From the NCBI GenBank assembly GCA_900315925.1, contig ONAV01000003.1:1-64000 (forward strand): DNA of 64,000 nt. The letters are read 5' to 3'. Position numbers and translations under genes: made by a program. This DNA is from an uncultured Selenomonadales bacterium (GTDB taxonomy: Bacteria > Bacillota > Negativicutes > Acidaminococcales > Acidaminococcaceae). The notes under the pieces are model-generated. The model had not been told where the DNA came from, did no database searches, and saw nothing but the letters and a program-made list of their open reading frames with translations. This document shows positions 1 through 39,025 of this stretch, piece by piece. Position 1 is the first letter of the stretch; each line of letters begins with the position of its first letter.

Positions 1-1
1 A

Positions 2-1660: not shown

Positions 1661-2647
1661 ATGACCGGTTTTCCCATTTACCGTCCCCGCCGTCTGCGCG
1701 CTACCGAGAACCTGCGCAGCCTGATCCGGGAGACGAGCCTCAGTGTAAAAGATTTGATTTTCCCCCTGTTTGTGGTACCGGGCGAAAATGTTAAGAACGA
1801 AATTGAAACTTTGAAAAACAATTACCAGTGGTCTGTGGACCGGGTGATGGAAGCCGTAGACGAAGCAATGGATCTGGGCATCCCCGCCGTGCTGCTGTTC
1901 GGCCTCCCCTCTTACAAAGATGAAGAAGGAAGCAGTGCCTGGGACGATAACGAACCGGTGCAGCGGGCCAGCAAAGCCATCAAAGCGAAATATCCGGAGA
2001 TGGTGGTCATCACCGACGCCTGCTTCTGCGAATACACCACCCACGGTCACTGCGGCATTCTGACCCCGGACTGCGCCTCCGTGGACAATGACAAGACCCT
2101 GCCCAACCTGGCCAAGCTGGCTGTCAGCCAGGCCCGGTGCGGTGCGGATATCATCGCCCCCTCCAACATGATGGACGGTTACGTGGCCACCATGCGCAAA
2201 GCGTTAGACGACGCGGGCTACACCAACACAGCCATCATGGCCTACAGCGCCAAATTTGCTTCCGCCTATTACGGCCCCTTCCGTGCCGCGGCGGATTCCG
2301 CTCCCGGCAAAGGCGACCGCAAGGGGTATCAGATGGACCCGGGCAACAGCGACGAAGCCATGCGGGAAATTGCGCTGGATATTGAAGAAGGCGCAGACAT
2401 CGTCATGGTAAAACCCGCCCTGGCTTATCAGGACGTAACCAGAAGAGCCCACGAAACCTTTAACCGTCCTCTCTGCGTATATAACGTCAGCGGCGAATAT
2501 GCCATGGTGAAAGCGGCGGCTGAAAAAGGCTGGATTGATGAAAAGCGCATCGTCATGGAAACCATGCTCAGCTTCAAACGGGCCGGCGCCAAGATGATCA
2601 TCACCTACCACGCCTTAGATGTGGCACGGTGGCTGAAAGAACAGTAA
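1661..2647 (+). CDS. hemB: Porphobilinogen synthase (delta-aminolevulinic acid dehydratase)
   Basis: Condenses two 5-aminolevulinate molecules into porphobilinogen, an early step in tetrapyrrole synthesis, in the cytoplasm. The 328 aa length is normal for the family. The two active-site lysines are visible: K198 in YSAKFASAYYGPFR and K251 in MVKPALAYQD. The segment DACFCEYTTHGHCG supplies Cys121, Cys123 and Cys131, the pattern of a zinc-dependent enzyme. The ATG is preceded by AAAGGAAG at good spacing. It lies between cobA-hemD and hemL in a co-directional haem cluster. Confidence 0.96.
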   Translation: MTGFPIYRPRRLRATENLRSLIRETSLSVKDLIFPLFVVPGENVKNEIETLKNNYQWSVDRVMEAVDEAMDLGIPAVLLFGLPSYKDEEGSSAWDDNEPVQRASKAIKAKYPEMVVITDACFCEYTTHGHCGILTPDCASVDNDKTLPNLAKLAVSQARCGADIIAPSNMMDGYVATMRKALDDAGYTNTAIMAYSAKFASAYYGPFRAAADSAPGKGDRKGYQMDPGNSDEAMREIALDIEEGADIVMVKPALAYQDVTRRAHETFNRPLCVYNVSGEYAMVKAAAEKGWIDEKRIVMETMLSFKRAGAKMIITYHALDVARWLKEQ

Positions 2648-2668
2648 CGAAAAACAGTAAAAATGAAT

Positions 2669-2695
2669 TTGGCCGGTTGCGAATGCTCCGGCCAA
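2669..2695 (+). other. Hairpin between hemB and hemL
   Basis: TTGGCCGG and CCGGCCAA form a perfect 8-base-pair GC-rich stem around an 11-base loop, just upstream of the hemL ribosome binding site. No T-run follows, so it may act as an mRNA processing or pausing structure rather than a terminator. Confidence 0.4.
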
Positions 2696-2733
2696 TGTTA
2701 TATGAGTTAAATTGGAAAAGCAGGTGAATGCGA

Positions 2734-3996
2734 ATGAATACCTTATCCAAATCTTCTTCTGTCTTTGCGGAAGCCAAACAGTACATCCCCGGTGGCGTCA
2801 ACAGCCCGGTGCGTTCCTTCCGCAGCGTAGGAGGCAATCCTCCTTTCATTACCAGAGGTGAAGGCAGCAAACTGTATGACCTGGACGGCAACAACTATAT
2901 TGATTATGTTTTGTCCTACGGCCCGCTGCTGTTAGGCCACGCCCACCCGGTCGTTACGGAAGCCGTGCAGGAAGCGGCAGCCAAAGGCACCAGCTTCGGC
3001 GCTCCTACCGGCGCGGAAGTAGCGCTGGCCAAACTGGTCTGTGAACTGGTTCCTTCCATGGATATGGTGCGCATGGTCAACTCCGGCACAGAAGCTACCA
3101 TGTCTGCCATCCGTCTGGCACGGGCGTACACGGGACGGGACTGCATCGTGAAATTCATTGGCTGCTACCACGGCCACAGCGATGCTCTGTTAGTACATGC
3201 CGGTTCCGGCGCCACCACCTTCGGCGTGCCCGACAGCCCCGGCGTGACCAAAGGCACGGCGGAGACTACCCTCTCCGTTCCTTTCAACGATCTGCCTGCG
3301 CTGGAGAACGTGTTTGCGGAAAAAGGCAAAGAGATTGCCGCCGTCATCATGGAACCCACCCCCGGCAACATGGGGCTGGTACTGCCGAAAGACGGTTACT
3401 TACAGGCCATCCGCGAATTGACAAAGAAATACGGCAGCCTGCTGATCATCGACGAAGTCATGTCCGGTTTCCGCTCCGCCCAGGGCGGCAGCCAGTCCTT
3501 ATATCACATCGAGCCGGACATCACCTGCCTTGGCAAAGTCATCGGCGGCGGTCTGCCGGTGGCGGCGTACGGCGGCAAACGGGAAATCATGAACTGGGTC
3601 TCCCCCGTAGGCCCCATGTACCAGGCCGGCACACTTTCCGGCAACCCGCTGGCCATGGCTGCCGGTATCGCGGCTCTCACGTATATGAAAGAAAATGATG
3701 TCTGCGCCACGCTGACAAAACGGAATGCAGAACTGACAGACGCACTGAAAGCGGCCGCCGATGCAGCCGGCGTTCCAGTGCAAGTTCCCCGCCTGGGTTC
3801 CATGTTCACCGTGTTCTTCTCCGAGAAGGAAGTCACCAACTACGAGGACGCCACCGCCTGCGATCTGGACGCTTTCCGCATCTACTTCCACAGCATGCTG
3901 GAACAGGGCATCTACCTGCCGCCTTCCCAGTTTGAGACCAAAAAGTTGCATTTACGAAAGTGGCAGAAAGCAAATAGTTTCATCGATGTAATTTAA
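2734..3996 (+). CDS. hemL: Glutamate-1-semialdehyde 2,1-aminomutase with atypical C-terminus
   Basis: PLP enzyme converting glutamate-1-semialdehyde to 5-aminolevulinate, upstream of HemB in the C5 pathway. The fold is clear: [11 protein letters not shown] near the N-terminus, [13 protein letters not shown], the YHGHSD segment, and the PLP lysine K268 in [12 protein letters not shown] chose the ATG at 2734 because AGGTG at 2722-2726 is 7 bases upstream of it but only 1 base from the in-frame ATG at 2728. The 420 aa protein follows the family to LPPSQFET. Its last 18 residues, rich in K, W and N, do not resemble the usual FVSxAHTxEDI helix, and none of the three forward frames supplies it. The end looks replaced or truncated. 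Confidence 0.9.
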
Positions 3997-5863: not shown

Positions 5864-8800
5864 TTACCACATGCGTTTTACCGTTACCGAACAGAACCAG
5901 TCTTTGTCATGACTGCCGCGGGTTAAGCCGCCGTCGCCGCCAAGGCTCCAGCCTTTGGCAAATTCAGTTTCTCCGCCGATGGATAAAACAAAGTGTGTCT
6001 TGTCCTGTACGTTACGCATATCATAGCTGTTCGCCTGATTGCCCATGTAACTGTACCGAAGCCTCGGTTCCGCACCGGCAAAGGCATGACGGATACCAAC
6101 CCGGATGGTGTAATTCCCTCCGGACAGATATCGTTTGAACTCTACCCCTGCCCCTGCGCCAAAATAATCATTGTGCTTGCTGTCCACGACCTGATTGAAT
6201 ACGCCGGCCCCTGTTTCGCTGTACCCGTTCTGCCACAGCCGGGACAGTTGTACGTTAACATACGGTCGCACATGCCAGGGAACGTCTTTCTGCGCCTGCA
6301 GGTCGTACAGATACTCGCCGCCCAGCTCCAGAATGCGGCTGTGATAATCGGCGCTGGCAGTCATGCCCATAACACCCCTGTGCAGTTTGTTGCGCATCCA
6401 GCCATAATTCAGGAACACCAGGCCTTCCCTTCCGGCTTTGTTGTAACCGGCGTACAGACCAATGCGTGTGTCTCTCAGTTCGTTGCCTGCGGTACTGTCC
6501 GTAAAGGCCGTTTTACTGTAACCGGCATATACCCCGGCCCGCCAGTTGGGAGCAACGGCTTTGTCCCAGCCCAGTAATGTAGTGGAACTATGGTAATCGG
6601 CGTCGTCTTTCAAATCGCCCCAGTTCTTGCCAAACTTCAGCCAGATATCATTATCCGCCGGTTCCAGCAGGCTCAGGGAAACATCCGGACCACCGCCGTT
6701 GCCGTCATCCAGACCGGCCTCCGGCAGTTTTACCTTTACCGGTTTCGGCAGGAAGGCTTCGTTAAGACGGGAAGACAAAAGGTGACGGGTCATCACGCTT
6801 CGCTGGGTCAACGCCATACTGTTAGCCGACGCGTTGGACGCAATCGAAGACAGCGCTTTCTTTGTCTCCGCAGGCGTCAGTGTGAACAGGGAACGCATTT
6901 CATTACGGCGCATATCTCCATTTGCAGTCAGGTTGTTGTACATGGACATCATGGCGCCGTACGTTTCTTCCTGCACCGCGTCTACAGCGCCCAGGTTGTT
7001 GGCCGCTTTGCCGGTCACCACTGCCTGGTTCCCTTCCACAGAACCGATTTCATCCAGCATGCCGAACTTGTATGGCGCATTTTCCGTATTCTTTACGGAA
7101 CCGCTGACCGAACCGGCCTGCAATACCGCAAACGTTTCATCCGGCAGCAGATTTTTCGCAATGACCTGAGAACCGTCAATTTCTGCCTCATCACTCACAC
7201 GGATCGTCCCGGCCCTTCCTCCGGCCACGCCCTGCAGCATGCCGTCAGAAAGCAGTTTCCCGGTAATATGCATAGACGATGCATCGTCGATTGCGCCGAT
7301 GGTACCGTGACTGACCAGGTAACCCGTATCCGTACTGTCCATCTCCATGGCAAAATCGTCCACCACAGATTCGGTCATATCGTGAACCGTATAGCTGCCG
7401 CCAAACAGGCTGGCCCCTTTGGCAACCTGCACCCCAACCACATCGGCCTTGCCTCCGTAGGTCAGCGTTCCGCCCAGCACGTTCAGTTTCATATTGTCCG
7501 GGCCGGAGATGTTGCCGTTATATGTTATGTTCGCATTAAAATTCAGGTTCGTCACCAGGTCGGGAATATAGACGTCATATGAATAGTTTTTTCCATTATA
7601 TTGGAGGCACAGCGCCTGACCGTCTTTATCCCACGGAACTTCATCATAGCTGCCGTCAGTTTTGAAATGCTTCCAGTCAGAAGTTATGTTCCCGCTGATG
7701 GAAGCCCCTTCCTTCACATTAATCGACCTGACAAAGGCATTCCGTCCGATATAAATCGCATTCTTCGCGCCGGACAGGGATCCGGACAGGTTATATTCCG
7801 TAACCAGCGGTCCGTTCAGTTCCGGAACTGTCTCATCGATCCGGTTATTGACGGAACTTGTTATACTTCCGTCTTCTGCATCCACGTTACGGGAAAAGCG
7901 GATATACGACCCCCTGTATTCTGAACCCGCTCCCAGCATATTACTGCCAAAATCAAACTGTACCCCATTGCCGCCGGTTCCGTCCGCCGTAACCGTCCCT
8001 TCCTGGTTTAACGTTTGGTTCCGGCCATAGCTGATCAGTACGCCGATTCCGTTGGCGCCGTCTGCATGCACTACATTCCCGCGGTCAAGGGTAACGGTAT
8101 TTTCCGTACCGTCGATACGTATGCCCGCAGCGCCGTCGCCTTTTGTCAGGATATCCGCAGCCTGGATGATAGTATTCCGGGAGCCAAACACATGAAGCCC
8201 TATGCCATAGGGTACTTCACTGTATTTTCCGGCAATATATGCGGTACCCGCCGCGTTCCGGGCTGAATAGCCCTGGGTATTGATAAGGGTCAGTCCGTCA
8301 TTATAAACCGATCTTCCATAATAGGCCTTACGGTCAAACTGATAGCCTATATCCTGCATTGCCGCCAGTTCCACTTCCGTAAAAACAGTGTAGTTCCGGT
8401 AATCAGCGTGACTCATCAACCCGCCGGTTTCCAGATGGGACAGGTCCAGACTACTTGTTTCCCAGCCGGTGATAGGCAGGCCGTCCACGCCGTCAAACTG
8501 TTTGCCCTTCAATACGTTGGTCACTTCGTCACCAACAAAGTATGCTTTTCCAGAGCGGGGCTGTGTTGTGCTCTTACTATCTAAAATAAAGAAATCAGCT
8601 TCCCGTAATGATGGGTCTTTTGTTTTCCTTCTGGAAAACTCACGGGAAGTAATAATCATCTTCCCTTTTGTCGCCGGATTCAGGTTCTGGTCCCGCAGAT
8701 GGTAAATCCAAGCATTGTCTTGTGTTATGTCTGAGGGAAATTGCATGATGGGAACACCGTCCGCGTCTTCCATTTCTTTCCCTCTCTTATCCTCAACGGA

Positions 8801-9526
8801 TGCTGTTATCACATTGAAGCCAAGCGCATGGGCCATTTCATGTCGTACGGTAGCCGCCAAGTCTGCCGCCTGTTCATTATCCGGCAGGATATTTCCCTTC
8901 TGAGACCACCAGCCATCTGCACATCCCTTGCGGTCCGCACCCATAAACTGTCCTATGCTGATTATACCGTAGGCTGCATCATTCAGTTTTTTCCCGTCAT
9001 AAATTATGAATTTTTCTTGGCCCGAAGATATCATCTTCAGTTTTGTAAAATCATCGATCCGGTTCAGTTCTTTCCCTTGCTGCAGCGATTGCATCCAATA
9101 GTGGGCCGAGACGGGTTCTCCCTGTTTAAAAGCAACCGAAGCCGCATATGCGTTGCCTTGTTGGGCCTGCCCCCTGATGAAAATCTGTGCCGGCACAGGG
9201 TTCTTTGTACCGGAACCCAGCATATCCGCCCAATATTGCACCCCATGAATGACACATTGCTGCGTTTGTGCCGGATGGTTATAGGGAATCACGTTCTTGC
9301 TTTTGTCGTCCAGAAAATCAACAAACAGTACACCGGCCGCTTCCTTGTTTTGATCTGTAACGTTCACAAAATTCACATCAAACACGCTGCGCCCGCCACC
9401 GGAAACAATAAGCTTTGCAGCTTCTGCCGTACCAGGTACGACAGAGCCGCAAAGCCCCAGGAAAACCGCAGCTGTTAAAATTGTCAGTTTGCGCTTGAAA
9501 AGCAGATTTTGTTTCGTTCTTTTCAT
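5864..9526 (-). CDS. Autotransporter with leishmanolysin-like zinc metalloprotease passenger
   Basis: Predicted type V secreted outer-membrane protein of 1220 aa. Residues 1-36 are a signal peptide ending AEA-A. The passenger carries a zinc-protease motif, H229-EMAH233-ALGF, and a later segment, LETGGLMSH, that looks like a Met-turn with a third ligand; this arrangement resembles peptidase family M8 more than serine-protease autotransporters. Residues about 430-900 are rich in short beta and glycine repeats typical of a beta-helix. From about 955 to the end is a transmembrane barrel of alternating aromatic strands finishing with VKRMW, the aromatic end used for barrel insertion. AAAGGA precedes the ATG. 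The gene lies 18 bases downstream of the flavodoxin gene and may share its transcript. Substrate unknown. Confidence 0.82.
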   Translation of the reverse strand: MKRTKQNLLFKRKLTILTAAVFLGLCGSVVPGTAEAAKLIVSGGGRSVFDVNFVNVTDQNKEAAGVLFVDFLDDKSKNVIPYNHPAQTQQCVIHGVQYWADMLGSGTKNPVPAQIFIRGQAQQGNAYAASVAFKQGEPVSAHYWMQSLQQGKELNRIDDFTKLKMISSGQEKFIIYDGKKLNDAAYGIISIGQFMGADRKGCADGWWSQKGNILPDNEQAADLAATVRHEMAHALGFNVITASVEDKRGKEMEDADGVPIMQFPSDITQDNAWIYHLRDQNLNPATKGKMIITSREFSRRKTKDPSLREADFFILDSKSTTQPRSGKAYFVGDEVTNVLKGKQFDGVDGLPITGWETSSLDLSHLETGGLMSHADYRNYTVFTEVELAAMQDIGYQFDRKAYYGRSVYNDGLTLINTQGYSARNAAGTAYIAGKYSEVPYGIGLHVFGSRNTIIQAADILTKGDGAAGIRIDGTENTVTLDRGNVVHADGANGIGVLISYGRNQTLNQEGTVTADGTGGNGVQFDFGSNMLGAGSEYRGSYIRFSRNVDAEDGSITSSVNNRIDETVPELNGPLVTEYNLSGSLSGAKNAIYIGRNAFVRSINVKEGASISGNITSDWKHFKTDGSYDEVPWDKDGQALCLQYNGKNYSYDVYIPDLVTNLNFNANITYNGNISGPDNMKLNVLGGTLTYGGKADVVGVQVAKGASLFGGSYTVHDMTESVVDDFAMEMDSTDTGYLVSHGTIGAIDDASSMHITGKLLSDGMLQGVAGGRAGTIRVSDEAEIDGSQVIAKNLLPDETFAVLQAGSVSGSVKNTENAPYKFGMLDEIGSVEGNQAVVTGKAANNLGAVDAVQEETYGAMMSMYNNLTANGDMRRNEMRSLFTLTPAETKKALSSIASNASANSMALTQRSVMTRHLLSSRLNEAFLPKPVKVKLPEAGLDDGNGGGPDVSLSLLEPADNDIWLKFGKNWGDLKDDADYHSSTTLLGWDKAVAPNWRAGVYAGYSKTAFTDSTAGNELRDTRIGLYAGYNKAGREGLVFLNYGWMRNKLHRGVMGMTASADYHSRILELGGEYLYDLQAQKDVPWHVRPYVNVQLSRLWQNGYSETGAGVFNQVVDSKHNDYFGAGAGVEFKRYLSGGNYTIRVGIRHAFAGAEPRLRYSYMGNQANSYDMRNVQDKTHFVLSIGGETEFAKGWSLGGDGGLTRGSHDKDWFCSVTVKRMW

Positions 9527-9544: not shown

Positions 9545-10405
9545 TTACATCTCCAGCCACTTTTTAATCTCTTCGTCACTCATTTCAGCCAGCTTGTTCG
9601 CATCCAGACAGTCCTTCACGTCTGCCTTGGGAACGGTATTGCGGATAGCGTCCGCGCTGCTCTTGGGTCCGCTGGTCTTGCTGGTGCAGAACGGATACAC
9701 CTTCTTCCCTTCCAGGTTCACCTTCTCCAGGAACGAGTGAATAATATTAGGACAGCTGAACCACCATATGGGGAATCCAATGGCAATCTTCTCATAGCGG
9801 CTGCAATCCGGCAGCGAGCCTTTGATTTCCGGGCGTGCGCCGGAGGCCTTTTCCATACCGGCCTTGGCCACGCAAAGTCCGTACATGGACGGATAGGCTT
9901 TCACCGGCAGGATGCGGTAGGTATTGCCTTTCGCCACAGACGCGATCTTCTGGGCCGCTTTCTCGGTCACGCCGGACCAGGAATAAAACGCTACCAGCAG
10001 TTTGCCTGCCATCTGCGGTTTCCGGTTTTCAAAGCGCGGTCTGTACGGACGGTTGCCCCCCGGCCTGTTGCCACCGCGGCTCGCCGAGCCATCCCCTTTT
10101 CCTTCCGGTCGGTTGCCGCCGCGTTCTGCGTAACCTTCACGGTTAGCGCCCTTACCAACCCCATTCCGGTCTTTATTGCCGTCCCAGTTGTTCTTCCGGA
10201 ACTTGCGGGGCGGTTTACCACCCGGTTTGTTGGCAGTTCCTGGGCCCGGTTTGCCGGGTCTTCCGCCCTGACCGGCATTGGGTTTGTTTTCGTAATTTGT
10301 ATTTACCCTGTCTCCGCCGGCAGCCTTTGCTTCATTCTGTTCCGGCGCCCCCTGCCCTGCAGGTCCATTGGTATTCTTTTTATAAAAACGTTTTCCTTGT
10401 GCCAT
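9545..10405 (-). CDS. Flavodoxin-domain protein with long disordered basic N-terminus
   Basis: Residues about 132-286 form a flavodoxin-like FMN domain: GKLLVAFYSWSGVTEKAA matches the phosphate-binding loop pattern YSxTGxT, and GFPIWWF is typical of the isoalloxazine-facing region. Residues 1-131 are low complexity, rich in Gly, Asn, Arg, Lys and Pro, with GGNRPGGNRP-type repeats resembling RNA-binding RGG tails. This tail is not normal for flavodoxins. There is no signal peptide, so the protein should be cytoplasmic. GGAGA precedes the ATG. The gene lies upstream of the autotransporter gene. Inferred role: electron transfer or FMN-dependent redox, with the tail tethering it to nucleic acid or another polyanion. 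Confidence 0.75.
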   Translation of the reverse strand: MAQGKRFYKKNTNGPAGQGAPEQNEAKAAGGDRVNTNYENKPNAGQGGRPGKPGPGTANKPGGKPPRKFRKNNWDGNKDRNGVGKGANREGYAERGGNRPEGKGDGSASRGGNRPGGNRPYRPRFENRKPQMAGKLLVAFYSWSGVTEKAAQKIASVAKGNTYRILPVKAYPSMYGLCVAKAGMEKASGARPEIKGSLPDCSRYEKIAIGFPIWWFSCPNIIHSFLEKVNLEGKKVYPFCTSKTSGPKSSADAIRNTVPKADVKDCLDANKLAEMSDEEIKKWLEM

Positions 10406-10530
10406 ATTGTCACACTCTCCATTAATATTGAAAAGGGATTACTCACGACTTGCAATTTACAATTCATTTCTGCCCTGGGGCAGCATCCCGCAGCTGCACA
10501 CACAGCGACGGTTCATCAAATTCGGCCACT

Positions 10531-11952
10531 TCACACTCTCTTCGCCAGTTTCAGGAAAGCTTCGTAGCCCCGTCTTGCTTCGTATATATCCGCCTTGCTG
10601 GTAGCTTCCCAGGGGGCGTGCATGCTCAGCACCGGCACCCCGCTGTCGATGACGTTCATGCCGTACAGTGCCATGATGTAGGCAATGGTACCGCCGCCGC
10701 CCAGATCCACCTTGCCTAGTTCTGACATCTGGAAGTTAATCTTTTCTTTTGCAAAGATGCTGCGGATGTGGGCGATGTATTCCGCATTGGCATCGTTGGA
10801 ACCGGATTTGCCCCGGGCGCCGGTGAACTTGTTCAGCACCAGGCCCTTGCCAAAGTAGGCTACGTTCTTCTTGTCGAAAGCCGATGCATACAGCGGATCG
10901 AACGCGCTGCTCACATCGCTGGAGAGCATCGTGCTGTTGGCCAGGGTGCGACGCAGCACCAGATCCGTTCCCTTGCCCAGCAGTTCCAGCAGCTCTGCCA
11001 CGGTATTCTCAAAGAACATACTCTGCATACCGGTGGCGCCAACGCTGCCGATTTCTTCCTTGTCCACTAAAATGCAGCAGGCGGTACGGCTCACGTCCTT
11101 CACATCCAGCATGGCCTTGTAGGAACCGTAAGCGCAGACCCGGTCGTCCTGCCCGTAGGACAGCACCATGCTCCGGTCGAAACCGGCTTCCCGGGCGCGG
11201 CCTGCGGGGACCACTTCCAGCTCTGCGGAGAGGAAATCTTCCTCTTCCACGCCAAACTGCTTCTTCAAAATTGCCAGCACGCCTTTCTTCACGGCTTCCT
11301 TGCCTGCGGACTTTTTGTCTTCTTCCTTCACATTGCGGCCCACTTTGATGGGCTGGTTGCCCACGATCACATCCAGGGCTTCCCCTTCCACCACCGTCGT
11401 CGCCTTCTTGTTCATCTGGTCCTGGGCCAGATGGATCAGCAGGTCGGACACGAAGAACACCGGATCTTCCGGTTTTTCGCCCACGGCAACTTTCACCACC
11501 GTGCCATCCTTTTTCACGATGACACCGTGGATCGCCAGGGGAATCGCCACCCACTGGTATTTTTTGATACCGCCGTAGTAATGGGTATCCAGCAGGGCAA
11601 AGCCGCCGTCCTCATACAATGGGTTCTGCTTCACATCCATGCGGGGGGAATCAATGTGGGCCCCTAAAATATTCATGCCGTTCTCAATGGGCTCTTTGCC
11701 GATATTGAACATAGCAATGCCTTTTTTCATGTTGATGCGGTACACCTTGTCCCCAGCCTTCAGCTTCTTTCCTTTGGCAATCAGTTCATCCAGGTCTTTG
11801 TAACCGGCCTCCTGCATTTCCGCCAGGATAAGCTCCACGCATTCCCGTTCCGTCTTGCCGTTGCTCAGGAAATCCAGATATCCGTTGCAGAATTCATGAC
11901 AGGCCTTGATCTGGGCCGGTGTATAGTTTTCCCACGTGCTCTTCTTTTCCAA
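10531..11952 (-). CDS. M18 family aminopeptidase
   Basis: Cytoplasmic dinuclear-zinc aminopeptidase of the aspartyl aminopeptidase family, removing N-terminal (often acidic) residues from peptides. Metal-site segments are visible: GAHIDSPRMD near residue 99, DKEEIGSVG in the middle, and GGGGTIAYI near the end. The reading frame is open to a GTG at 12054 that overlaps the stop of the upstream gene, but I chose the TTG at 11952. AAAGGA lies about 8 bases before it, and the protein then begins LEKKSTWENY, which matches the usual start of bacterial M18 enzymes. This gives 473 aa. The 34-residue extension has no family resemblance. Confidence 0.88.
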   Translation of the reverse strand: MEKKSTWENYTPAQIKACHEFCNGYLDFLSNGKTERECVELILAEMQEAGYKDLDELIAKGKKLKAGDKVYRINMKKGIAMFNIGKEPIENGMNILGAHIDSPRMDVKQNPLYEDGGFALLDTHYYGGIKKYQWVAIPLAIHGVIVKKDGTVVKVAVGEKPEDPVFFVSDLLIHLAQDQMNKKATTVVEGEALDVIVGNQPIKVGRNVKEEDKKSAGKEAVKKGVLAILKKQFGVEEEDFLSAELEVVPAGRAREAGFDRSMVLSYGQDDRVCAYGSYKAMLDVKDVSRTACCILVDKEEIGSVGATGMQSMFFENTVAELLELLGKGTDLVLRRTLANSTMLSSDVSSAFDPLYASAFDKKNVAYFGKGLVLNKFTGARGKSGSNDANAEYIAHIRSIFAKEKINFQMSELGKVDLGGGGTIAYIMALYGMNVIDSGVPVLSMHAPWEATSKADIYEARRGYEAFLKLAKRV

Positions 11953-14029: not shown

Positions 14030-15085
14030 TCACCGTATTCTCCTATCTAAAGGCGCATAGCCCCTGCTCCGGATAAAATCCATTGTTTCCCCCGAATAGA
14101 CCAGGTGTGCCTGCTGCAACTCCCGCACAGTGCGGCAGCCTGTCAGCACCATGATGTCTTTTAAATCAGCAATTACATCCTGCAGATACGCAATCGCTGC
14201 CTCTTCCCCGTTCTGCATAAGCATTGTCAGCACGTTTCCGCTCATGGCCACAGCATCTGCGCCAAGCGCAATCGCCAGAGCAGCCTGCCAGCCGTTACGG
14301 ATACCGCCGGACGCAATTACCGTGTCCCAGGGTTTCGCCACATGAGCCGCATCAATCAGGCTCCAGGCCGTAGGAATCCCCCAGCTTGCAAACTTTTCAT
14401 AGCGTGTGTTCCGGCCCCGGGCTGCCTCAATGGCTGCAAAGCTGGTGCCGCCAAGGCCGGCAATGTTAAAACATGAAAAACCCATAGCCTGCAGCTCCTG
14501 TATCTGCTCCGCCGCCATGCCGCAGCCTGTCTCTTTTATAATGATCGGAACATTCGTACAATCCTGCAGACGGGACAGATTATCCCGGATCAGGGAAAAC
14601 TGTTTGTCTCCCTCCGGCATAATCAGTTCCTGGGTCACATTCAGATGGATCTCCAGGGCGTCTGCCCGAATCATATCCACGGCAGCTCTTGCCTCTTCCG
14701 GCGTAGCAAGAGCGCTGACATTGGCAAAGAAGATGCCATCGGGATTCTCCTCACGAATCACCGCAAAAGTATCTGCATGCTGCCCTTCTCTGACCGAACC
14801 GTACTGGGACCCTACCGCCAGGGAAACACCGGCACGCCCTGCCACCGCAGCCAGTTTCCGGTTGATTTCCTTTACACGGTCCGCACCGCCGGTAATGGCA
14901 TCAATCATCACCGGAACCGGCAGTTTAAGGTTGCCGATCCGGGTGCGTATATCCACCCTGTCCGGCTCCACCGGTGTCAGGCAGTTGTGCAGAAAACGGA
15001 TATCCTCCAGACCTGTCTTGCGCTCTCCGTCTCCTAATTCCAGCGCGTACCGGATATGATCTAATTTTCGTTGTTCCCGTATCAT
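14030..15085 (-). CDS. fni: Type 2 isopentenyl-diphosphate delta-isomerase
   Basis: FMN- and NADPH-dependent enzyme interconverting IPP and DMAPP. The protein shows RKLDHIRYALE at the N-terminus, the MIDAITGGA segment, GSQYGSVR, LEIHLNVTQE, the IIKETGCGM strand, and IASGGIRNGWQAALAIALGADAVAMSG, the FMN phosphate site. The ATG at 15085 is preceded by AGGGG; upstream in-frame sequence lacks family similarity. Length 351 aa, as expected. MEP-pathway bacteria do not strictly need this isomerase because IspH makes both products, so its presence beside a damaged ispH is notable. Confidence 0.93.
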   Translation of the reverse strand: MIREQRKLDHIRYALELGDGERKTGLEDIRFLHNCLTPVEPDRVDIRTRIGNLKLPVPVMIDAITGGADRVKEINRKLAAVAGRAGVSLAVGSQYGSVREGQHADTFAVIREENPDGIFFANVSALATPEEARAAVDMIRADALEIHLNVTQELIMPEGDKQFSLIRDNLSRLQDCTNVPIIIKETGCGMAAEQIQELQAMGFSCFNIAGLGGTSFAAIEAARGRNTRYEKFASWGIPTAWSLIDAAHVAKPWDTVIASGGIRNGWQAALAIALGADAVAMSGNVLTMLMQNGEEAAIAYLQDVIADLKDIMVLTGCRTVRELQQAHLVYSGETMDFIRSRGYAPLDRRIR

Positions 15086-15161
15086 ACCAATCCCCTGATA
15101 AAACCAAACTATTACAATCCGGCGGTGTGATAACCTGCTTTTACACATCCGCCCTGCAGTA

Positions 15162-15258: not shown

Positions 15259-16563
15259 TTATTTGTTCAGACCTTCCAGCTGTTCCGCCATAGCATTGTT
15301 GGAGAAGTTTTCTTCCGTATTGCCATCCATAAAAGCTTTCATTTCTGCTTTTTCTTCATCTTTCTTAGCGCGGGTCAGGGACAGTCCGATTTTCCGTTTG
15401 GCCTGATCAATCTTGATGATCATCGGTTTAACCACCTGGCCAATCTTCAGCACGTCTTCCGGTTTTTCCACACGGGTATCTGCCAGTTCGGAAACGTGAA
15501 TCATGCCTTCTACTTTATCATTCAGACGAACCAGTGCGCCAAAGGGCAGGAAGCGTTCTACCGTGCCTTCCACTTCATCACCTACCGCAAAGCCGGCAGC
15601 AGCAGCAATCCACGGATCTTCCTGGGTTGCTTTGATGGACAGGGAAACGCGATGGTTTTCTTTGTCAACTTTCTTGACAAATACTTTTACCATATCGCCT
15701 TCCTTAGCAACATCACCAGCTTTTACGCTGCGGTCGTAGGACAGTTCCGTATTGTGAACCAGGCCTACCAGACCTTCCAGCACTTCTACGAACAGACCAA
15801 ATTCAGCAACCTTTACAACTTTGCCTTCGTAGGTCTCGCCTTCTACGATTTCTTCATACGCAGCAGCTTCTCTGGCAGCACGGGCTTCTTTGGCAGCCGC
15901 GATACGGGCTTCACGGTTTTCTAGCCATTCCTGATGCTTCTGCGCCTTTTCCGCTTTCAGCAGGTCGCGGCGGGAAACAACAATACGTTTTTTCTCCGCA
16001 TTGACTTCGATAATCTCAGCTTCCATTTCTTTACCTACGTACGGGGTAAAGTCGTCAATATGACGCAGTTCTACGTGGGAAGCAGGCATAAAGCCTTCTA
16101 CGCCTTCGACTGCTACAGCCAGACCTACAACCTGTTTCGGTTTGTCGGAGTCCTTGTCGCGGCCGCGGGCTTTGATCACGCGTAATACCTTAACGGTTGC
16201 CGGGCGCTTTTCGCCTTCCGGCAATTCCTGTACCGTCTTCCATGCAGCTTCTTTTTCCGCACGGATCTTGGACAGGCGGATAAACTCTTCGGTAGTGGAA
16301 CCCGGTACAACAACTGCTTCCACTTCATCGCCAACGTTAACCGTACCCATCAGTTCTTCCGGGTTTGCGTCCATTGCCCAGTCAGCCCAGGCAATCAAGC
16401 CCTCACGTCTATAGCCAAAAGAAATATAAACGCCTTCTTTATCTACCTGAATTACTTTGCCGGTAACGAGTTTGCCCGGATGCACGCCGTAATCTTCCAT
16501 GCTGGCATCAAGCATCGCCTCGAATTCGTTACCCTCTACTTTGTTGATTTCCATGTTTTCCAT
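15259..16563 (-). CDS. rpsA: Ribosomal protein S1 homologue, four S1 RNA-binding domains
   Basis: Ribosome-associated protein that helps mRNA bind to the 30S subunit. The 434 residues contain four S1 domains: about 30-100 (GKVIQVDKEGVYISFGYRREGLI), 115-200, 240-310 (GKVVKVAEFGLFVEVLEGLVGLVH) and 325-400 (GTVERFLPFGALVRLNDKVEGMIHVSEL), followed by an acidic tail. The ATG at 16563 has AAGGAGG at 16575-16581, 11 bases away, and that site overlaps the ispH stop. The open frame continues upstream of this ATG and encodes AISAGASTPERIIKEAVKA, the usual IspH C-terminus. In several Firmicutes ispH and S1 are one polypeptide, so this gene probably descends from such a fusion. Confidence 0.92.
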   Translation of the reverse strand: MENMEINKVEGNEFEAMLDASMEDYGVHPGKLVTGKVIQVDKEGVYISFGYRREGLIAWADWAMDANPEELMGTVNVGDEVEAVVVPGSTTEEFIRLSKIRAEKEAAWKTVQELPEGEKRPATVKVLRVIKARGRDKDSDKPKQVVGLAVAVEGVEGFMPASHVELRHIDDFTPYVGKEMEAEIIEVNAEKKRIVVSRRDLLKAEKAQKHQEWLENREARIAAAKEARAAREAAAYEEIVEGETYEGKVVKVAEFGLFVEVLEGLVGLVHNTELSYDRSVKAGDVAKEGDMVKVFVKKVDKENHRVSLSIKATQEDPWIAAAAGFAVGDEVEGTVERFLPFGALVRLNDKVEGMIHVSELADTRVEKPEDVLKIGQVVKPMIIKIDQAKRKIGLSLTRAKKDEEKAEMKAFMDGNTEENFSNNAMAEQLEGLNK

Positions 16564-16574
16564 CGCTTTGACAG

Positions 16575-16581
16575 CCTCCTT
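16575..16581 (-). promoter_or_regulatory. Strong Shine-Dalgarno for S1 inside the former ispH coding sequence
   Basis: AAGGAGG on the minus strand overlaps the TAA that ends ispH (16580-16582). It allows S1 to be made independently even though the upstream IspH frame is broken. In the other frame the same bases encode part of the IspH-like segment IIKEAV. Confidence 0.7.
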
Positions 16582-17320
16582 AATTATACGTTCCGGAGTG
16601 GATGCTCCGGCCGAGATAGCACCGGGGGCAGATGGCGCTTACCAGCTCGGTCAGGTGCCTGGTGTTGGCACTGTTCCTGCCGCCTATCACGATAAAGGCA
16701 TCTACCTCGGCAGCCAGTTTAGCCGCAGCATTCTGCCGCTCTTTGGTCGCCAGACAGATTGTCCGCTCCACCCGGTATTCACCGGGCCTTGCAGCCTGCA
16801 GCGCCTGCAGTATTTCCTCAAATTTCGCCAGCTCAAACGTGGTCTGGATGATGACGCAATATTTGGAAACAAGGGGCACTTCGCCAATATCTTCTTTAGA
16901 TTCTATAATAATACCATTTTTTCCGGCAAATGCCAATATGCTTTTTACTTCCGGATGATTTTTTTCTCCGACGATAATGGGCTGGTAACCTTCCTCAAAT
17001 GCTTGCTGTGCCTTGCGTTGGCTCGTTTTTACATTAGGACAGGTGGCATCTAAAATTTTCAAATTTTTTTCAATTGCCTGCTCATAAATGTCCGGACCCA
17101 CCCCATGGGATCGGAAAATAACCGTTTCCCCTTCCGAAAACTGGTCCAATGAGTCTTTGCAGCCCACGCCTTTGGCTGCCAGTTCGTCTGTGAACTGCGG
17201 ATTGTGGATCAGAGGGCCCAGGGTTGCGGCAGGCAGGCTGTTTACAGCTCCCTCTGCGATTTCCACAGCCCGTTTCACACCGTAGCAGAAGCCACAGGGA
17301 TCAGCCAGGATGATTTTCAT
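16580..17320 (-). CDS. ispH: 4-hydroxy-3-methylbut-2-enyl diphosphate reductase, C-terminus lost by frameshift/deletion
   Basis: Last enzyme of the MEP pathway, making IPP and DMAPP with a 4Fe-4S cluster. The three cluster ligands are present: C12 (GFCYGV), C94 (DATCPNV) and C189 (TICLATKERQ), along with H72, H122 and GGRNSANT. At residue 233 (AICPR) the protein leaves the family and ends after 13 unrelated residues, at 246 aa instead of about 280. The missing SAGASTPE motif, which binds substrate diphosphate, is encoded in another frame immediately downstream and continues into S1. About 25 residues between these points are absent. Start: ATG at 17320, the usual family start, overlapping the end of plsC by 20 bases. 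Activity is uncertain. Confidence 0.85.
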   Translation of the reverse strand: MKIILADPCGFCYGVKRAVEIAEGAVNSLPAATLGPLIHNPQFTDELAAKGVGCKDSLDQFSEGETVIFRSHGVGPDIYEQAIEKNLKILDATCPNVKTSQRKAQQAFEEGYQPIIVGEKNHPEVKSILAFAGKNGIIIESKEDIGEVPLVSKYCVIIQTTFELAKFEEILQALQAARPGEYRVERTICLATKERQNAAAKLAAEVDAFIVIGGRNSANTRHLTELVSAICPRCYLGRSIHSGTYN

Positions 17321-17921
17321 TTTCCGTTGCCACCGCCTTTCGGAGAACCAGGACTTCTTCCCGCCAGCGGGCGCCCAGGGCGTCCAGGCTTTCCCGTCCG
17401 GTTCCCATGTCGGGATCATATTCTATGGGTTTTCCGAAGATGACCCGTACTTTGGGCCAACCCGGATGCCTGCTTAAATCGGTACCATATATATAGGCCG
17501 GCACAATCTTGGCTTTCCGCTTGACGCCCATCATGAAGGCGCCGCCGCCGGCCCGGCCCAGTTCCCCGGTTTTACTGCGGGTACCTTCGGGGAATACAGC
17601 CAGTACTTTGTTTTCTTTTAAAATCGCGAGTCCGGTTTTTATAGCTTCCCGGTCCATCTCTCCCCGTTTTACGGGGAAAGCTCCCAGTTTACGGATGAGA
17701 GCGCCGAACCAGGCAGGTTTGAAAAGTTCGGATTTTGCCATAAAATGCACTTTCCGTGTGGCTGCCGCACCTAATACAGGGGGGTCAAGCAGGCTCAGAT
17801 GGTTACTGGCAATGACCACGGGGCCTTCTGCAGGAATGTTTTCCTGGCCGTAGACTTCGCAACGGAGCCATATTTTGAATACCCAGGGGAAAGTCAGGTG
17901 ACAAAAATCGTATAAAGTCAT
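17301..17921 (-). CDS. plsC: 1-acyl-sn-glycerol-3-phosphate acyltransferase
   Basis: Membrane-associated enzyme that acylates lysophosphatidate to phosphatidate in phospholipid synthesis. The catalytic NHLSLLD motif (H41, D46), the GAFPVKRG block and the FPEGTRS glycerol-phosphate site (E112) are all visible. A hydrophobic N-terminal stretch could lie against the membrane. The 206 aa length is typical. Its end overlaps the ispH start, so the two are probably translated from one message with cmk upstream, although a 213-base repeat-bearing gap separates it from cmk. Confidence 0.92.
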   Translation of the reverse strand: MTLYDFCHLTFPWVFKIWLRCEVYGQENIPAEGPVVIASNHLSLLDPPVLGAAATRKVHFMAKSELFKPAWFGALIRKLGAFPVKRGEMDREAIKTGLAILKENKVLAVFPEGTRSKTGELGRAGGGAFMMGVKRKAKIVPAYIYGTDLSRHPGWPKVRVIFGKPIEYDPDMGTGRESLDALGARWREEVLVLRKAVATENENHPG

Positions 17922-18134: not shown

Positions 18135-18806
18135 TTATAACTGCTTTTCTTTAACCAATTCTAATACTTTATCCGTCACCTGTTCGATGTTCATAGCCGA
18201 GGTGTCCAGATAGATGGCGTCTTCCGCCTGACGCAGGGGGGAAACTTCCCTCTCCATATCCTGTTTGTCCCGGGAGGCGATTTCTTCCTTCAGCTTTTTG
18301 TAGTCTACGGTTTCGCCTTTGGCTTCCAGCTCCAGGCCGCGGCGGCGGGCCCGTTCTTCTACGGTAGCGGTGAGGAAGATTTTGCACTGGGCATCGGGAA
18401 AAACTACAGTACCGATGTCCCGTCCGTCCATGACGATGCCGCCTTCTTTACCCATGCGGCGCTGCTGGTCTACCATGGCAGTACGGACTTCGGGAACGGC
18501 GGCCACTTTGGATACCAGTCCGGTGACTTCGGCGGTGCGGATAGCGTCCGTTACTTCGGTTCCGTCTACGAAGACGCGGTTCACTGCGTTTTCGGGACGG
18601 AAGGTGATGCAGATTTCATGGGCCAGTTTGCCGGCCAGTTCCGGAGTGAAAGGTTTGCCTGTCTGCAGGAGTTTCCAGGTTACAGCCCGATACATGGCGC
18701 CGGTGTCGATGTAGGCAAAGCCGAGTTTCCCGGCCGCCAGTTTGGCGATGGTGCTTTTGCCTGCGCCTGCAGGTCCGTCGATAGCGACTACAAATCCGTT
18801 ATTCAT
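18135..18806 (-). CDS. cmk: Cytidylate kinase
   Basis: Phosphorylates CMP and dCMP using ATP. The N-terminal P-loop GPAGAGKST lies at residues 11-19, and DGRDIGTVVFPDA and RDKQDMERE segments follow. The ATG at 18806 has AAAGGTGAC about 8 bases upstream, so an 18-residue in-frame extension is rejected. Length 223 aa. The bases immediately upstream of the start belong to a palindromic repeat (18838-19009). plsC follows downstream on the same strand. Confidence 0.95.
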   Translation of the reverse strand: MNNGFVVAIDGPAGAGKSTIAKLAAGKLGFAYIDTGAMYRAVTWKLLQTGKPFTPELAGKLAHEICITFRPENAVNRVFVDGTEVTDAIRTAEVTGLVSKVAAVPEVRTAMVDQQRRMGKEGGIVMDGRDIGTVVFPDAQCKIFLTATVEERARRRGLELEAKGETVDYKKLKEEIASRDKQDMEREVSPLRQAEDAIYLDTSAMNIEQVTDKVLELVKEKQL

Positions 18807-18837
18807 AATTAATGTCACCTTTCTGTTATTAATGTTG

Positions 18838-19009
18838 TGCCCGGCTGATGCTGCCTTCATAGCGCTCCTCTAACGCTTCGGGCGTGTCCCGCGTCGCGTT
18901 GTCATGTGTAAAGTATTGATGCCCAACTTGCAAGATCTTCTTTAATGAACAGTTCCTCGCGCCCCTGCGGGGAGCACGCTCCGCTTATTCAGGCAGCATC
19001 AGCCGTGCA
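18838..19009. repeat. Palindromic intergenic element, family B
   Basis: TGCCCGGCTGATGCTGCC at 18838-18855 and its near-perfect inverse GGCAGCATCAGCCGTGCA at 18992-19009 bound a 172-base element filling most of the cmk/flavoprotein gap. Just inside are GGAGCGCTATGAAG (minus strand, 18855-18868) and GAATAAGCGGAGCG (minus strand, near 18976-18990). These two words occur joined at 32355-32378, which supports dispersal. No ORF is inside. Confidence 0.65.
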
Positions 19010-29337: not shown

Positions 29338-31404
29338 TTATTCTGCTTCTTTCTTGCGTTCTTCAATGATCTTTTCCGCCATCTTGGCCGGCACATCTTC
29401 GTAATGGTCAAACTTCATTTCAAAGGTACCCATGCCCTGGGTCAGCGCCCGCAGATCTACGGAGTATTCCATGATTTCCGCATAAGGAACCTGGGCTTCT
29501 ACCCGACTGATGCCTTCTTCTACGCTCTGCATGCCCAGGATACGGCCGCGCTTGGAGTTCAAATCACCGATAACGTCGCCCATCATGCTCTCTGCACAGA
29601 GAACATACAGATTGTAGTAGGGTTCCATCAGAACCGGTTTGGCTTCTTCCATAGCTTTCTTGAACGCGATACTGGAAGCGGTCTTAAATGCCATTTCCGA
29701 AGAGTCAACGGGATGGTAGGAACCGTCAACCAGAGTAATGCGTACGTCCACAACCGGGTAACCGGCCAGGATACCGTGCTGCATGCAGTCCTGCATACCT
29801 TTTTCCACAGCGGGGATGTACTGACGGGGTACCGCGCCGCCGAAAATCTTATCTACGAACTCAAAACCGCTTCCCGGCGGCAGGGGTTCCATATCGATCA
29901 CAACGTCGCCGTACTGGCCATGGCCGCCAGACTGTTTTTTATGTTTGCCCTGTACATGGGCTTTGCCGCGGATGGTCTCACGGTATTCAACCTGAGGCGC
30001 ACGCAGGTCGGCTTCCACGCCGAATTTCCGTTTCATGCGCTCCATGATGATTTCGATGTGCTGGTCGCCCATACCGCTTACCAGCATTTCCTTGGTTACC
30101 GGGTTGCGGCTCATAATGATGGTGGGGTCTTCGTCCATGAGGCGGCTCAGGGCATTGGAAATCTTGTCTTCTTCCCCTTTCTTCTTGGCGAAAATAGCCC
30201 GGGTATACATGGGCAGCGGGAAAGCGATAGGAGCGAACAGAACCGGGTTGGCCTTGTCGCTGAGGGTATCGCCGGTTACCGTGAACTGTAATTTCGAGGT
30301 TACGCCAATATCACCGGCGGTGATTTCTTTCATCGCAATCTGGTTCTTGCCGCGCATGGTGAATACGTTGGCAATACGTTCGTCTTTTTCACGGCTGGAG
30401 TTGTAAACCATGCTGTCGGCTTTGATGGAGCCGGAGAACACACGGATAAAGCTCAGACGGCCTACGAACGGATCGGAAGTGGTCTTGAACACCAGGGCCG
30501 CCATGGGGGCGCCTGCGTCACGGGTTACTTCTTCGCCGGTCGCAACGTCTTTTACCTTATAATCGTTCAGGATAGCAGGGTACGTATAGTCGATGATAGC
30601 ATTCATAGTGCGGCCCAAGCCGATGTTCTTGAGAGCACTGCAGCAGATCATGGGGAAAATGTGAGCCTGACGGATACCCTGGATCAGGCATTTTTTGATT
30701 TCTTCGTCGGAAATGGTCTCCCCTTCCAGATAACGCATCATGCACTCGTCATCGGCTTCTACGGCGGCTTCTACCATCTTTTCATGCATGTCTTCCGCAT
30801 AAGCTTTCAGGTCATCCGGAATCTCGATCTCATCGGAACCGTTGCCGTTCTTGCGATAGGCTTTCATCTTAACGCAGTCAATAACGCCTTCGAATTTATC
30901 TTCTTTGCCCAAAGGCAATTCCAGAGGCAGTACTTTCTTGCCGAATTTATGGCGCAGGTTTTCCAGGATGCTGTCGAAGTCCGCATTTTCACGGTCCATC
31001 TTGTTCACCAGCAGAATGCGGGGCAGACCGGCTTCTTCCGCCAGCTTCCAGCACTGCTCGGTACCTACCTGTACGCCAGCGGTGGCATTGATTACGATCA
31101 GAGCGCTGTCTACAGCCCGGAAAGCGCCTTTTACTTCCGCAACGAAATCGGCGAAGCCCGGGGTATCGATAAAGTTGATCTTGCTGTCGCGCCATTCAAC
31201 CGGAGCCAGCGTAGCGTTTACGGATACGCCGCGTTTAATTTCTTCCGGTTCATAGTCCGTGGTGGTAGCCCCATCTTCTACTTTGCACATACGATCAATC
31301 GCACCAGCGCGGTACAGCAAAGCTTCCGTTACAGATGTGGTTCCGGCCCCACCGTGACCTACAATGGCCACATTTCTAATTTTGTCGCCTGTATAAGCTT
31401 TCAT
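29338..31404 (-). CDS. EF-G-like translational GTPase (paralogue type) with altered P-loop
   Basis: Translation-factor GTPase with the domain order of EF-G: G domain about 1-270, domain II about 300-390, domains III-V to 688, including GQYGDVVIDMEPLP and PVVDVRITLVDGSYHPVDSSEMAFK. G3 (DTPGFADF) and G4 (NKMD) are intact, but the P-loop reads GHGGAGTTS, with Thr22 where the nucleotide-binding lysine should be. This and the sequence style RGVSVNATLAPVEW mark it as the EF-G-like group found beside true EF-G in many Firmicutes rather than the str-operon fusA. Its exact role is uncertain. It has a good promoter at 31443-31471 and its own terminator. Confidence 0.85.
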   Translation of the reverse strand: MKAYTGDKIRNVAIVGHGGAGTTSVTEALLYRAGAIDRMCKVEDGATTTDYEPEEIKRGVSVNATLAPVEWRDSKINFIDTPGFADFVAEVKGAFRAVDSALIVINATAGVQVGTEQCWKLAEEAGLPRILLVNKMDRENADFDSILENLRHKFGKKVLPLELPLGKEDKFEGVIDCVKMKAYRKNGNGSDEIEIPDDLKAYAEDMHEKMVEAAVEADDECMMRYLEGETISDEEIKKCLIQGIRQAHIFPMICCSALKNIGLGRTMNAIIDYTYPAILNDYKVKDVATGEEVTRDAGAPMAALVFKTTSDPFVGRLSFIRVFSGSIKADSMVYNSSREKDERIANVFTMRGKNQIAMKEITAGDIGVTSKLQFTVTGDTLSDKANPVLFAPIAFPLPMYTRAIFAKKKGEEDKISNALSRLMDEDPTIIMSRNPVTKEMLVSGMGDQHIEIIMERMKRKFGVEADLRAPQVEYRETIRGKAHVQGKHKKQSGGHGQYGDVVIDMEPLPPGSGFEFVDKIFGGAVPRQYIPAVEKGMQDCMQHGILAGYPVVDVRITLVDGSYHPVDSSEMAFKTASSIAFKKAMEEAKPVLMEPYYNLYVLCAESMMGDVIGDLNSKRGRILGMQSVEEGISRVEAQVPYAEIMEYSVDLRALTQGMGTFEMKFDHYEDVPAKMAEKIIEERKKEAE

Positions 31405-37147: not shown

Positions 37148-39025
37148 CTATAACCAATGAGAGATTTTCTCCGCCATCTGTTCCGGCATCAGTCCGATGT
37201 CATGCAGCAACAGTTTCCTGTCACCCTGTGAGATGAATTCATCCGGAATGCCAAAGGGCAGCACGGCGGTCATATGCAACAGACCATAACTGTTCAGGGC
37301 TTCCATCACTGCATCCCCTACGCCGCCTTTCAATACCCCTTCTTCCATGGTGACGATACGGTGGGTTTTGGCTGCATTTTCACAAAGCAGGTCCTCGTCA
37401 AGAGGTTTGGCGAAGCGCATGTTCACTACACCGGCGCTGATACCTTTTGCGGTTAGCAGGTCCGCGGTCTTTTCGGCTTCCGCCACCATACTGCCGATAG
37501 CCCATATGGTAAGGTCACTGCCTTCCCGCAGGGTCTCCGCCTTACCGATGGGCAGTGTGTGCAGAGGTTCACTGAGATCCGCTCCCACGCCGCTGCCTCT
37601 GGGATAGCGCAGGGAGATAGGACCGTCGTTGTATTCTATGGCTGTCCACAGCATGTGCCGCAGCTCGTTTTCGTCTTTAGGCGCCATCACTGTCATGTTG
37701 GGCATGGGAATCAGATAGGCATAGTCGAACACTCCGTGATGGGTGTAGCCGTCGTCCCCTACCAGACCGGCCCGGTCCATACACAGCTTCACCGGCAGGT
37801 TCTGCATGCAGATGTCGTGAATCACCTGGTCGTAAGCCCGCTGCATGAAGGTAGAGTAAATGGCTGCCACTGGTTTAATGCCTTCCGTAGCCAGCCCCGC
37901 TGCGAAAGTCACCGCGTGTTGTTCCGCAATGCCTACGTCAAAGAAGCGGTCCGGGAAACGTTTGGCGAACAGGTTGGTTCCGGTGCCGTCGGGCATAGCT
38001 GCCGTAATGGCTACAATGGATTTATCTTTTTCCGCCAGTTCCACCAGAGTTTTGCCAAAGACGCTGGTGTAAGTAGGCGGCGCCCCGGGTTTGCTGATTT
38101 TCTTCCCGGTAGCAATATCAAAGGGACCTGTTCCGTGAAATTCGTTGGCCCGTTCTTCCGCTGGGGCGTAGCCCTTGCCTTTTTTGGTGATAACGTGAAT
38201 CAACACCGGGCCGTCTTCCCGTTTGGCTGCAGTCAGCATGGGCAGAAGGTCCTCGATGTCATGGCCGTCCACAGGCCCGAAGTACTTAATACCCAAATGT
38301 TCGAACATGGACTCAGGGGCTACCAGATATTTGACCCCGCCCTTCACCCGTTCGATAACTTCCAGCACATCGTCACCGTGCTTCATATCCCCCAGCCAGT
38401 TTTCCACATTACGCTTCAGCTTATTGTAGGTCTCCCCGGTGCGCAGCTGATACAGGTACTGGGACATGGCTCCCACGTTTTTGGAGATGGACATCTCGTT
38501 ATCGTTGAGGATGATGATAAGCCTTCGCTTGGTATCCCCGATATGGTTAAGGGCTTCGAAGGACATACCGCCTGTCATGGCGCCGTCGCCGATGACAGCC
38601 ACCACCTGAAAGTCCTCGCCTTTCAGGTCACGGGCCGCCGCAATGCCATCCGCCGCCGAAAGGGACGTGGAAGAATGACCCACACCGAAGGCGTCGTGCT
38701 CACTTTCCTGCCGTTTGGGGAAGCCGGAAAGACCTTTGTACTTGCGCAGGGTGGGAAAGGCTGCTTTTCGTCCTGTTAAAATTTTATGAATATAGGCCTG
38801 ATGCCCTACATCAAATATAAGCTTGTCTTTGGGAGAGTCAAAAACCCGGTGAAGGGCAATGGTCAGTTCCACGGCCCCCAGGTTGGGAGCCAGGTGCCCA
38901 CCGTTTTTGGACACGACTTCAATGATCAGCTGCCGGATTTCCGCCGCCAGCTGATTCATTTCCGCCAGTGTGAGAGTTTTCAGGTCCAGGGGGCTGTTGA
39001 CTCTGTCCAGAATTTTATCAGACAT
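37148..39025 (-). CDS. dxs: 1-deoxy-D-xylulose-5-phosphate synthase
   Basis: First enzyme of the MEP isoprenoid pathway, joining pyruvate and glyceraldehyde-3-phosphate with TPP. DVGHQAYIHKILTGR, the TPP motif GDGAMTGGMSFEALNHIG, NDNEMSIS, YFGPVDGHD and the second-half DVGIAEQHAVTFAAG and DRAGLVGDDGYTHHG are all present. Length 625 aa. AAAGGT lies upstream of the ATG. The dxs-tlyA-nadK-argR-recN order is conserved in Firmicutes. Confidence 0.97.
   Translation of the reverse strand: MSDKILDRVNSPLDLKTLTLAEMNQLAAEIRQLIIEVVSKNGGHLAPNLGAVELTIALHRVFDSPKDKLIFDVGHQAYIHKILTGRKAAFPTLRKYKGLSGFPKRQESEHDAFGVGHSSTSLSAADGIAAARDLKGEDFQVVAVIGDGAMTGGMSFEALNHIGDTKRRLIIILNDNEMSISKNVGAMSQYLYQLRTGETYNKLKRNVENWLGDMKHGDDVLEVIERVKGGVKYLVAPESMFEHLGIKYFGPVDGHDIEDLLPMLTAAKREDGPVLIHVITKKGKGYAPAEERANEFHGTGPFDIATGKKISKPGAPPTYTSVFGKTLVELAEKDKSIVAITAAMPDGTGTNLFAKRFPDRFFDVGIAEQHAVTFAAGLATEGIKPVAAIYSTFMQRAYDQVIHDICMQNLPVKLCMDRAGLVGDDGYTHHGVFDYAYLIPMPNMTVMAPKDENELRHMLWTAIEYNDGPISLRYPRGSGVGADLSEPLHTLPIGKAETLREGSDLTIWAIGSMVAEAEKTADLLTAKGISAGVVNMRFAKPLDEDLLCENAAKTHRIVTMEEGVLKGGVGDAVMEALNSYGLLHMTAVLPFGIPDEFISQGDRKLLLHDIGLMPEQMAEKISHWL

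Follow-up and report, generated by a model that had tools for sequence, protein, structure and literature searches.

Internal in-frame starts that give a shorter second product are already known as a kind, with infB, cheA, clpB and mcrB as examples, and in these genes, likewise, a second Shine-Dalgarno sequence and a start lie within one reading frame. Unlike in those genes, the second product predicted at the locus described here is a whole ribosomal protein, S1, which is fused to an unrelated metabolic enzyme, IspH. This fusion is itself already known, as the family NF000907/PRK00087 and as the IspH-RPS1 protein of Rao et al., which has the same domain order (Rao et al. 2015, PMC4746011). 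In the parts of that paper available to us, the Clostridium thermocellum fusion was expressed as one active polypeptide, no free S1 is reported, and the fusion was interpreted as a ‘Rosetta stone’ protein linking the ribosome with isoprenoid and Fe-S metabolism (PMC4746011). A 46 kDa protein that co-purified with it was identified there as E. coli Rho by mass fingerprint with 69% coverage, an identification that is the authors’ own and is backed by their oligomer wash (PMC4746011). Since a free C. thermocellum S1 would, by our estimate, be of similar size, this band might deserve another look. The embedded S1 start proposed here is not mentioned in the available parts of that paper, and term searches of open-access literature, including the accessible text of PMC4746011, PMC11641769, PMC12605070 and PMC6203783, found no mention of it.

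The window, meaning the whole stretch of 64,000 nucleotides that was analysed, contains 0 N and comes from a genome (G000) of 2.56 Mb in 100 contigs, listed as 88.41% complete, of a rumen-type bacterium whose nearest named relatives are Succiniclasticum genomes, including S. ruminis DSM 9236. The locus lies in a row of minus-strand genes that runs from cmk, encoding (d)CMP kinase (18135..18860, profile match), through a plsC-like 1-acylglycerol-3-phosphate acyltransferase (17301..17921, profile match), which overlaps the ispH start, to a truncated IspH domain of 246 aa (16580..17320), a ribosomal protein S1 ORF of 434 aa (15259..16563, profile matches) and a type 2 isopentenyl-diphosphate isomerase (14030..15148, TIGR02151 above cut-off), which acts on the products of IspH. 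The same window contains, also on the minus strand, a full-length dxs (37148..39025, profile match), which encodes the first MEP-pathway enzyme. Searches of a plasmid collection with the locus and of Rfam with the window gave no match.

Elsewhere in the window, positions 1-3941, which hold its first genes (the first being cobA/hemD-like), are 95-97% identical in DNA to the relative G010; the other aligned blocks have about 74-88% identity, an EF-G block apart, and a recent exchange between species is possible for the first stretch. The EF-G-like block (29338-31455) has the opposite orientation in both G004 and G010 and, with 92% similarity, stands above its surroundings. An ORF of 1,220 aa (5864-9526) has a signal-like N-terminus and no NCBIfam match at 1e-10, and is mostly unaligned to G004 and G010 in the listed blocks.

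The IspH frame starts at 17320 on the minus strand and is family-like through ...LVSAICPRC, after which 12 residues follow up to the stop TAA at 16582-16580; it reads ...GGRNSANTRHLTELVSAICPRCYLGRSIHSGTYN. Of the 246 residues, about 234 follow the family and the final 12 come after the deletion point. Translated in the neighbouring frame, the bases at the end of IspH give AISAGASTPERIIKEAVKAMEN... and continue without a stop into S1, this frame being open for 459 aa; the IspH C-terminus remnant AISAGASTPERIIKEAVKA (16564..16620, minus strand) is readable only there. Frame translation thus confirmed two parts of the original prediction, namely that IspH leaves the family after AICPR and stops at 16580 and that its true end is encoded in the neighbouring frame, open into S1. 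The broken frame is not a chance arrangement because in 11 congeners (L003-L013) a single frame of 710-759 aa is open across the same place. These congeners contain 62 bases that are absent from the window, and their alignment places the lesion at 16619/16618 on the minus strand, with a loss of about 21 codons and a frame shift. The frame-shifting deletion in a fusion that had been proposed therefore stands, at a smaller size than the 65-80 bases and about 25 residues first given. The junction of the deletion is ambiguous by 1 base, or by 4 (TATC) if the ancestor had TATC like L006 and L007.

Profile searches agree with a truncation at the C-terminal side of IspH. The truncated IspH scored 223.7 bits with TIGR00216, over the cut-off of 187.85, and covered profile positions 1-241 of 282; with PF02401 it scored 240.8 bits (cut-off 24.5) and was matched to position 228 of 267. 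NF000907, the bifunctional IspH/S1 profile, was matched by the truncated IspH at positions 1-236 of 671; the intact congener L004 passes its cut-off of 624 with 632.9 bits, whereas the pieces in the window, in two frames, fail it with 256.6 and 307.3 bits. S1 models matched strongly yet under their cut-offs (NF005208, 294.7 bits against 368), as did the intact L004 with 299.2 bits. Three Cys stretches are retained in the truncated IspH (CGFCYG, ATCPNV and TICLAT), and a complete IspH domain including the C-terminal SAGAS/TAGAS segment was not found, this segment being present only in the other frame. When the L004 domain is aligned to solved IspH structures, the stretch that the window lacks and its frame-shifted tail fall on the C-terminal end of the domain, including the SAGAS segment. 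The Ser of this segment contacts the substrate. The truncated IspH is probably inactive; in the available parts of Rao et al., C. thermocellum IspH residues 1-171 were inactive, but that construct lacks more than the IspH in the window (PMC4746011).

We then compared the locus with its relatives in a family sample of 59 genomes, which was searched with the fused protein of L004 and whose result table was sorted by eye. A single-frame ispH-S1 fusion is present in 49 of the 59 genomes, the fused gene is cut or split by contigs in four (G006, G017, G022 and G030), only short S1-domain matches were found in three (G016, G028 and G034), and breaks within a contig occur in three, G000 itself, G009 and G070. 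G028, which is listed as 98% complete, has no IspH or dxs match, although its genus mates G072-G074 have both; it is possibly a lineage without the MEP pathway, or this is a gap. The deletion of the window is absent from the 49 intact fusions and from G009 and G070, the other seven family genomes lying outside that comparison. Relatives with the same shortened IspH, which the original prediction had named as evidence against itself, did not appear among the family genomes in which the place is readable. The break in G009 (L107, G009:C26:50500-54790) is an independent 22-base out-of-frame deletion in the S1 N-terminus, after the embedded start, which breaks the frames of both the fusion and the free S1 and leaves IspH whole; this break on the S1 side speaks against such breaks being tolerated because S1 is spared. 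In the draft genome G070 (L108, G070:C44:500-4161), the frame breaks within the IspH half near residues 117-122. The control gene dxs has one within-contig break (G005) in the 55 genomes with a match, and 3 of 59 genomes against 1 of 55 are too few to claim a break hot-spot in the fused gene.

The remaining IspH, up to the break, has a dN/dS of 0.077-0.132 against nine congeners, which is close to or under the range of 0.120-0.188 for four pairs of intact relatives. It carries 0 private amino-acid changes at positions invariant in the nine congeners (the relatives, taken in turn, have 0 to 5), and purifying selection on it is normal. As no decay is visible, the lesion would be of very recent origin, a minor variant or an error of the assembly and not an old fixed change, and we lean to the last two. 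Compensation elsewhere in the genome, which had been offered as one way to live with the lesion, found no support in G000. In this assembly, listed as 88% complete, a profile search found one ispH, and a DNA search with the intact L004 junction matched only the two sides of the locus, which meet at 16618, so that no second copy of the junction was seen. The two mevalonate enzymes searched in the same assembly, HMG-CoA reductase and synthase, gave no match, and the MEP enzymes IspG, Dxr and IspF are present in addition to the dxs product.

Taken together, we favour, with some reserve, an error in the assembly or its consensus, or else a variant of low frequency, with a living population that would have the intact fusion. 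This explanation is consistent with an IspH otherwise under purifying selection and free of private changes, with a single ispH beside dxs, dxr, ispG and ispF where HMG-CoA reductase and synthase were not found, and with the draft state of G000; the other within-contig breaks, in G009 and G070, also lie in genomes that are listed as 89 and 87% complete. It is less at ease with the deletion itself, a clean loss of 62 bases with 1-4 bases of microhomology that resembles slippage and not a homopolymer error, and with the rest of the window, where no other frame break held up among 38 G004 and 42 G010 orthologues (at least 60% identity to either genome). Among the breaks flagged in that scan, the one near 9737-10649 involves an ORF antisense to an intact minus-strand ORF (9545-10405), the minus frame at 21430 runs on against G004, and at 60731-60857 the flagged ORF of G010 spans the gap between two ORFs of the window; the short PNPase in G000 has a frame that begins at a contig end.

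A deletion that is real and fixed appears rather unlikely. It would be a gene fission with loss of IspH activity and survival through an unassembled second ispH or through isoprenoids from outside. About 12% of the genome may be missing, and an IspH stop that overlaps the S1 Shine-Dalgarno sequence is a workable geometry for S1, but the IspH is without decay, no second copy was found and the rest of the pathway, including the type 2 IPP isomerase, is kept. Moreover, the pathway enzymes are described as essential in the available parts of Rao et al. (PMC4746011). Both an artefact or variant and a fixed change are compatible with the motif at the junction being an embedded start for S1.

This motif, AAGGAGG at 16581-16575 on the minus strand, lies 11 bases ahead of the S1 ATG (16563-16561) and is overlapped by the shifted IspH stop TAA (16582-16580). 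The original prediction took it as a restart newly used through the deletion. The motif was not made by the deletion, however, because the intact family fusions carry it too: in 39 of 39 distinct intact family fusions, AGGAGG is present at one place with an ATG 11 bases on. At the class level, the motif occurs at the same place in 17 of 20 further loci (L111-L130), and 15 of 17 whole fusions have the motif with an ATG or GTG at the usual place. In one more whole fusion (L130) the motif and ATG lie further on, so that 16 of 17 contain a Shine-Dalgarno motif with an in-frame start. The exception is L122 (G053:C9:12100-15300), an intact fusion with no motif, relocated or not, within the 240 bases read. 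We also observed that, over 47 non-redundant fusions, synonymous conservation in 5-codon windows along the gene peaks at the junction, with an excess of 0.284 (mean 0.002, sd 0.052); the peak lies there also when the two subsets are analysed separately, with an excess of 0.331 (sd 0.078) for 30 family sequences and 0.216 (sd 0.049) for 17 class-level sequences. Motif and start are thus conserved at synonymous sites, as expected for an internal in-frame start, with L122 as the one exception.

The conservation extends across the phylum sample. A fixed pattern of the IspH motif, AGGAGG, 11 bases and RTG was matched in at most 244 of 398 phylum genomes, an upper figure because at least one match (G224) looks unrelated to ispH, and controls with the reversed pattern gave 0 as far as they were followed by eye. 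A protein search found IspH in 126 of 129 phylum genomes, and one locus was taken from each of 125 genomes besides G000 (L131-L255), a second, unfused match in G137 being left out. The IspH C-terminal motif was located in 123 of these 125 loci, of which 108 were called fused, that is, with at least 150 codons after the C-terminal motif within the stretch, and 15 were not. In L208 and L228, which were left out of the counts, the frame continues past the junction, and both motif and ATG are present; L236, one of the 15 called unfused, is truncated at the end of its contig and carries a motif and an ATG at a shorter spacing.

Under the first strict rule for motif and start, 98 of the 108 fusions pass. 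The ten that fail have GAGGGGG or AAGGGGG, which can pair through G-U wobble, and an ATG follows at the usual spacing. A uniform rule that was widened after these exceptions were known (AGGAGG, GGGAGG or AGGGGG at a spacing of 4-14 to an in-frame ATG, GTG or TTG) holds in 108 of 108 fusions, 98 of them at one position and spacing, and in 20 of 1,784 in-frame background segments drawn at random from these genes. The in-frame composite with the 11-base spacing is found at the junction in 99 of the 108 genes and elsewhere only 5 times in 64,149 codons. Codon choice points in the same direction: where the second motif codon encodes Glu, it is GAG in 97 of 97 cases (2,558 of 7,123 in the gene background, site included), and where the first encodes Lys or Glu, its third base is G in 101 of 101. 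At the start column, we counted ATG 91, GTG 10, TTG 3, CTG 2 and GTT 2 times. Five phylum fusions lack the motif or the start at the usual place; three of these (L151, L231 and L232) have the ATG one codon earlier, at an 8-base spacing after the motif, and in the other two (L202 and L210) both motif and ATG lie further on. These counts are not independent events because the sampled genomes are related.

Loci in which ispH and S1 are unfused serve as natural controls. In G051 (L132), the two genes occupy separate, overlapping frames; ispH carries the AAGGAGG motif at the usual place, and a GTG behind it is available as the S1 start. Since S1 is out of frame with ispH there, no fusion can form. 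Seven other unfused loci encode Glu at the second codon without an S1 start immediately behind it, and this Glu is GAA in six (L170, L173, L247, L251, L252 and L254) and GAG in one (L212). In L170 and L173, the motif is missing and S1 begins at a start of its own downstream of the IspH stop. L212 keeps GAGGAGG at the old site, and its S1 appears to begin beyond it, behind a second motif. Among nine IspH loci from other phyla, the eight whose junctions were read lack the motif; the ninth (L061), which has a different C-terminus, was missed by the rule.

The predicted pairing with the 16S tail suggests that the embedded site is strong. In 93 of 108 fusions, no other site of the ORF pairs better with the anti-Shine-Dalgarno sequence than the junction, and among 54 loci tried, the junction outscores the upstream ispH site in every one of the 52 that yielded a value. 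The median pairing energy is -11.5 kcal/mol at the junction compared with -7.5 kcal/mol at the upstream ispH site, where some energies may be off because a simple rule was used to assign the ispH start; the window has -11.1 and -7.6 kcal/mol, respectively. The spacing counts against the strength of the site: the 5' end of AGGAGG lies 17 bases before the start, which is longer than the 13-base spacing that gave the highest translation in Clostridium ljungdahlii according to the accessible text of PMC6203783.

From the conservation of motif and start, we infer that ribosomes initiate at the embedded start, and we judge it likely that the ispH-S1 locus normally has two products. Ribosomes that start at ispH would read through and make the IspH-S1 fusion, and other ribosomes would bind the embedded motif and make free S1. 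In the window, the 62-base deletion just upstream of the embedded start would shift the frame and cut the fusion product short; ribosomes that finish at 16580 would stop atop the S1 motif, and S1 would be readable from its own start. We lean only slightly to the further proposal that, across the phylum, free S1 from the stronger embedded site predominates in the cell and the IspH-S1 fusion is the lesser form. Against an embedded start stand L122, which has no motif, and the unfused L212, which keeps GAGGAGG at the old site; in addition, 108 of 108 depends on the widened rule, compared with 98 of 108 under the strict one. The single biochemical study of the fusion, on C. thermocellum, also counts on this side, as it describes one polypeptide and no free S1 (PMC4746011).

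Shine-Dalgarno-like sequences have been proposed to slow ribosomes, and AGGAGG, which sits at the border between the IspH and S1 domains, could instead be an elongation-pause signal and not a start site. We consider this improbable, as an ATG, GTG or TTG occupies the usual codon in 104 of the 108 phylum fusions, three of the four others have an ATG one codon earlier and the fourth has motif and ATG further on, and the unfused S1 of G051 has a start just after the same motif. That the motif is an inert relic of once separate genes is very improbable: unfused genes with the same motif do exist (L132 and L212), but the invariant GAG and the peak of synonymous conservation indicate continuing selection on it.

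If the embedded start is used as proposed, annotation would be overlooking a protein in many members of the phylum, and a cell could keep its S1 despite a frame break in the IspH half. With free S1 also being made, the ‘Rosetta stone’ idea would be recast, and the ratio of fused to free S1 would become the quantity of interest. If free S1 is the main form, the supposed link between IspH and the ribosome would apply to just a part of the S1, and S1 would be spared by lesions in the IspH half such as the one in the window.
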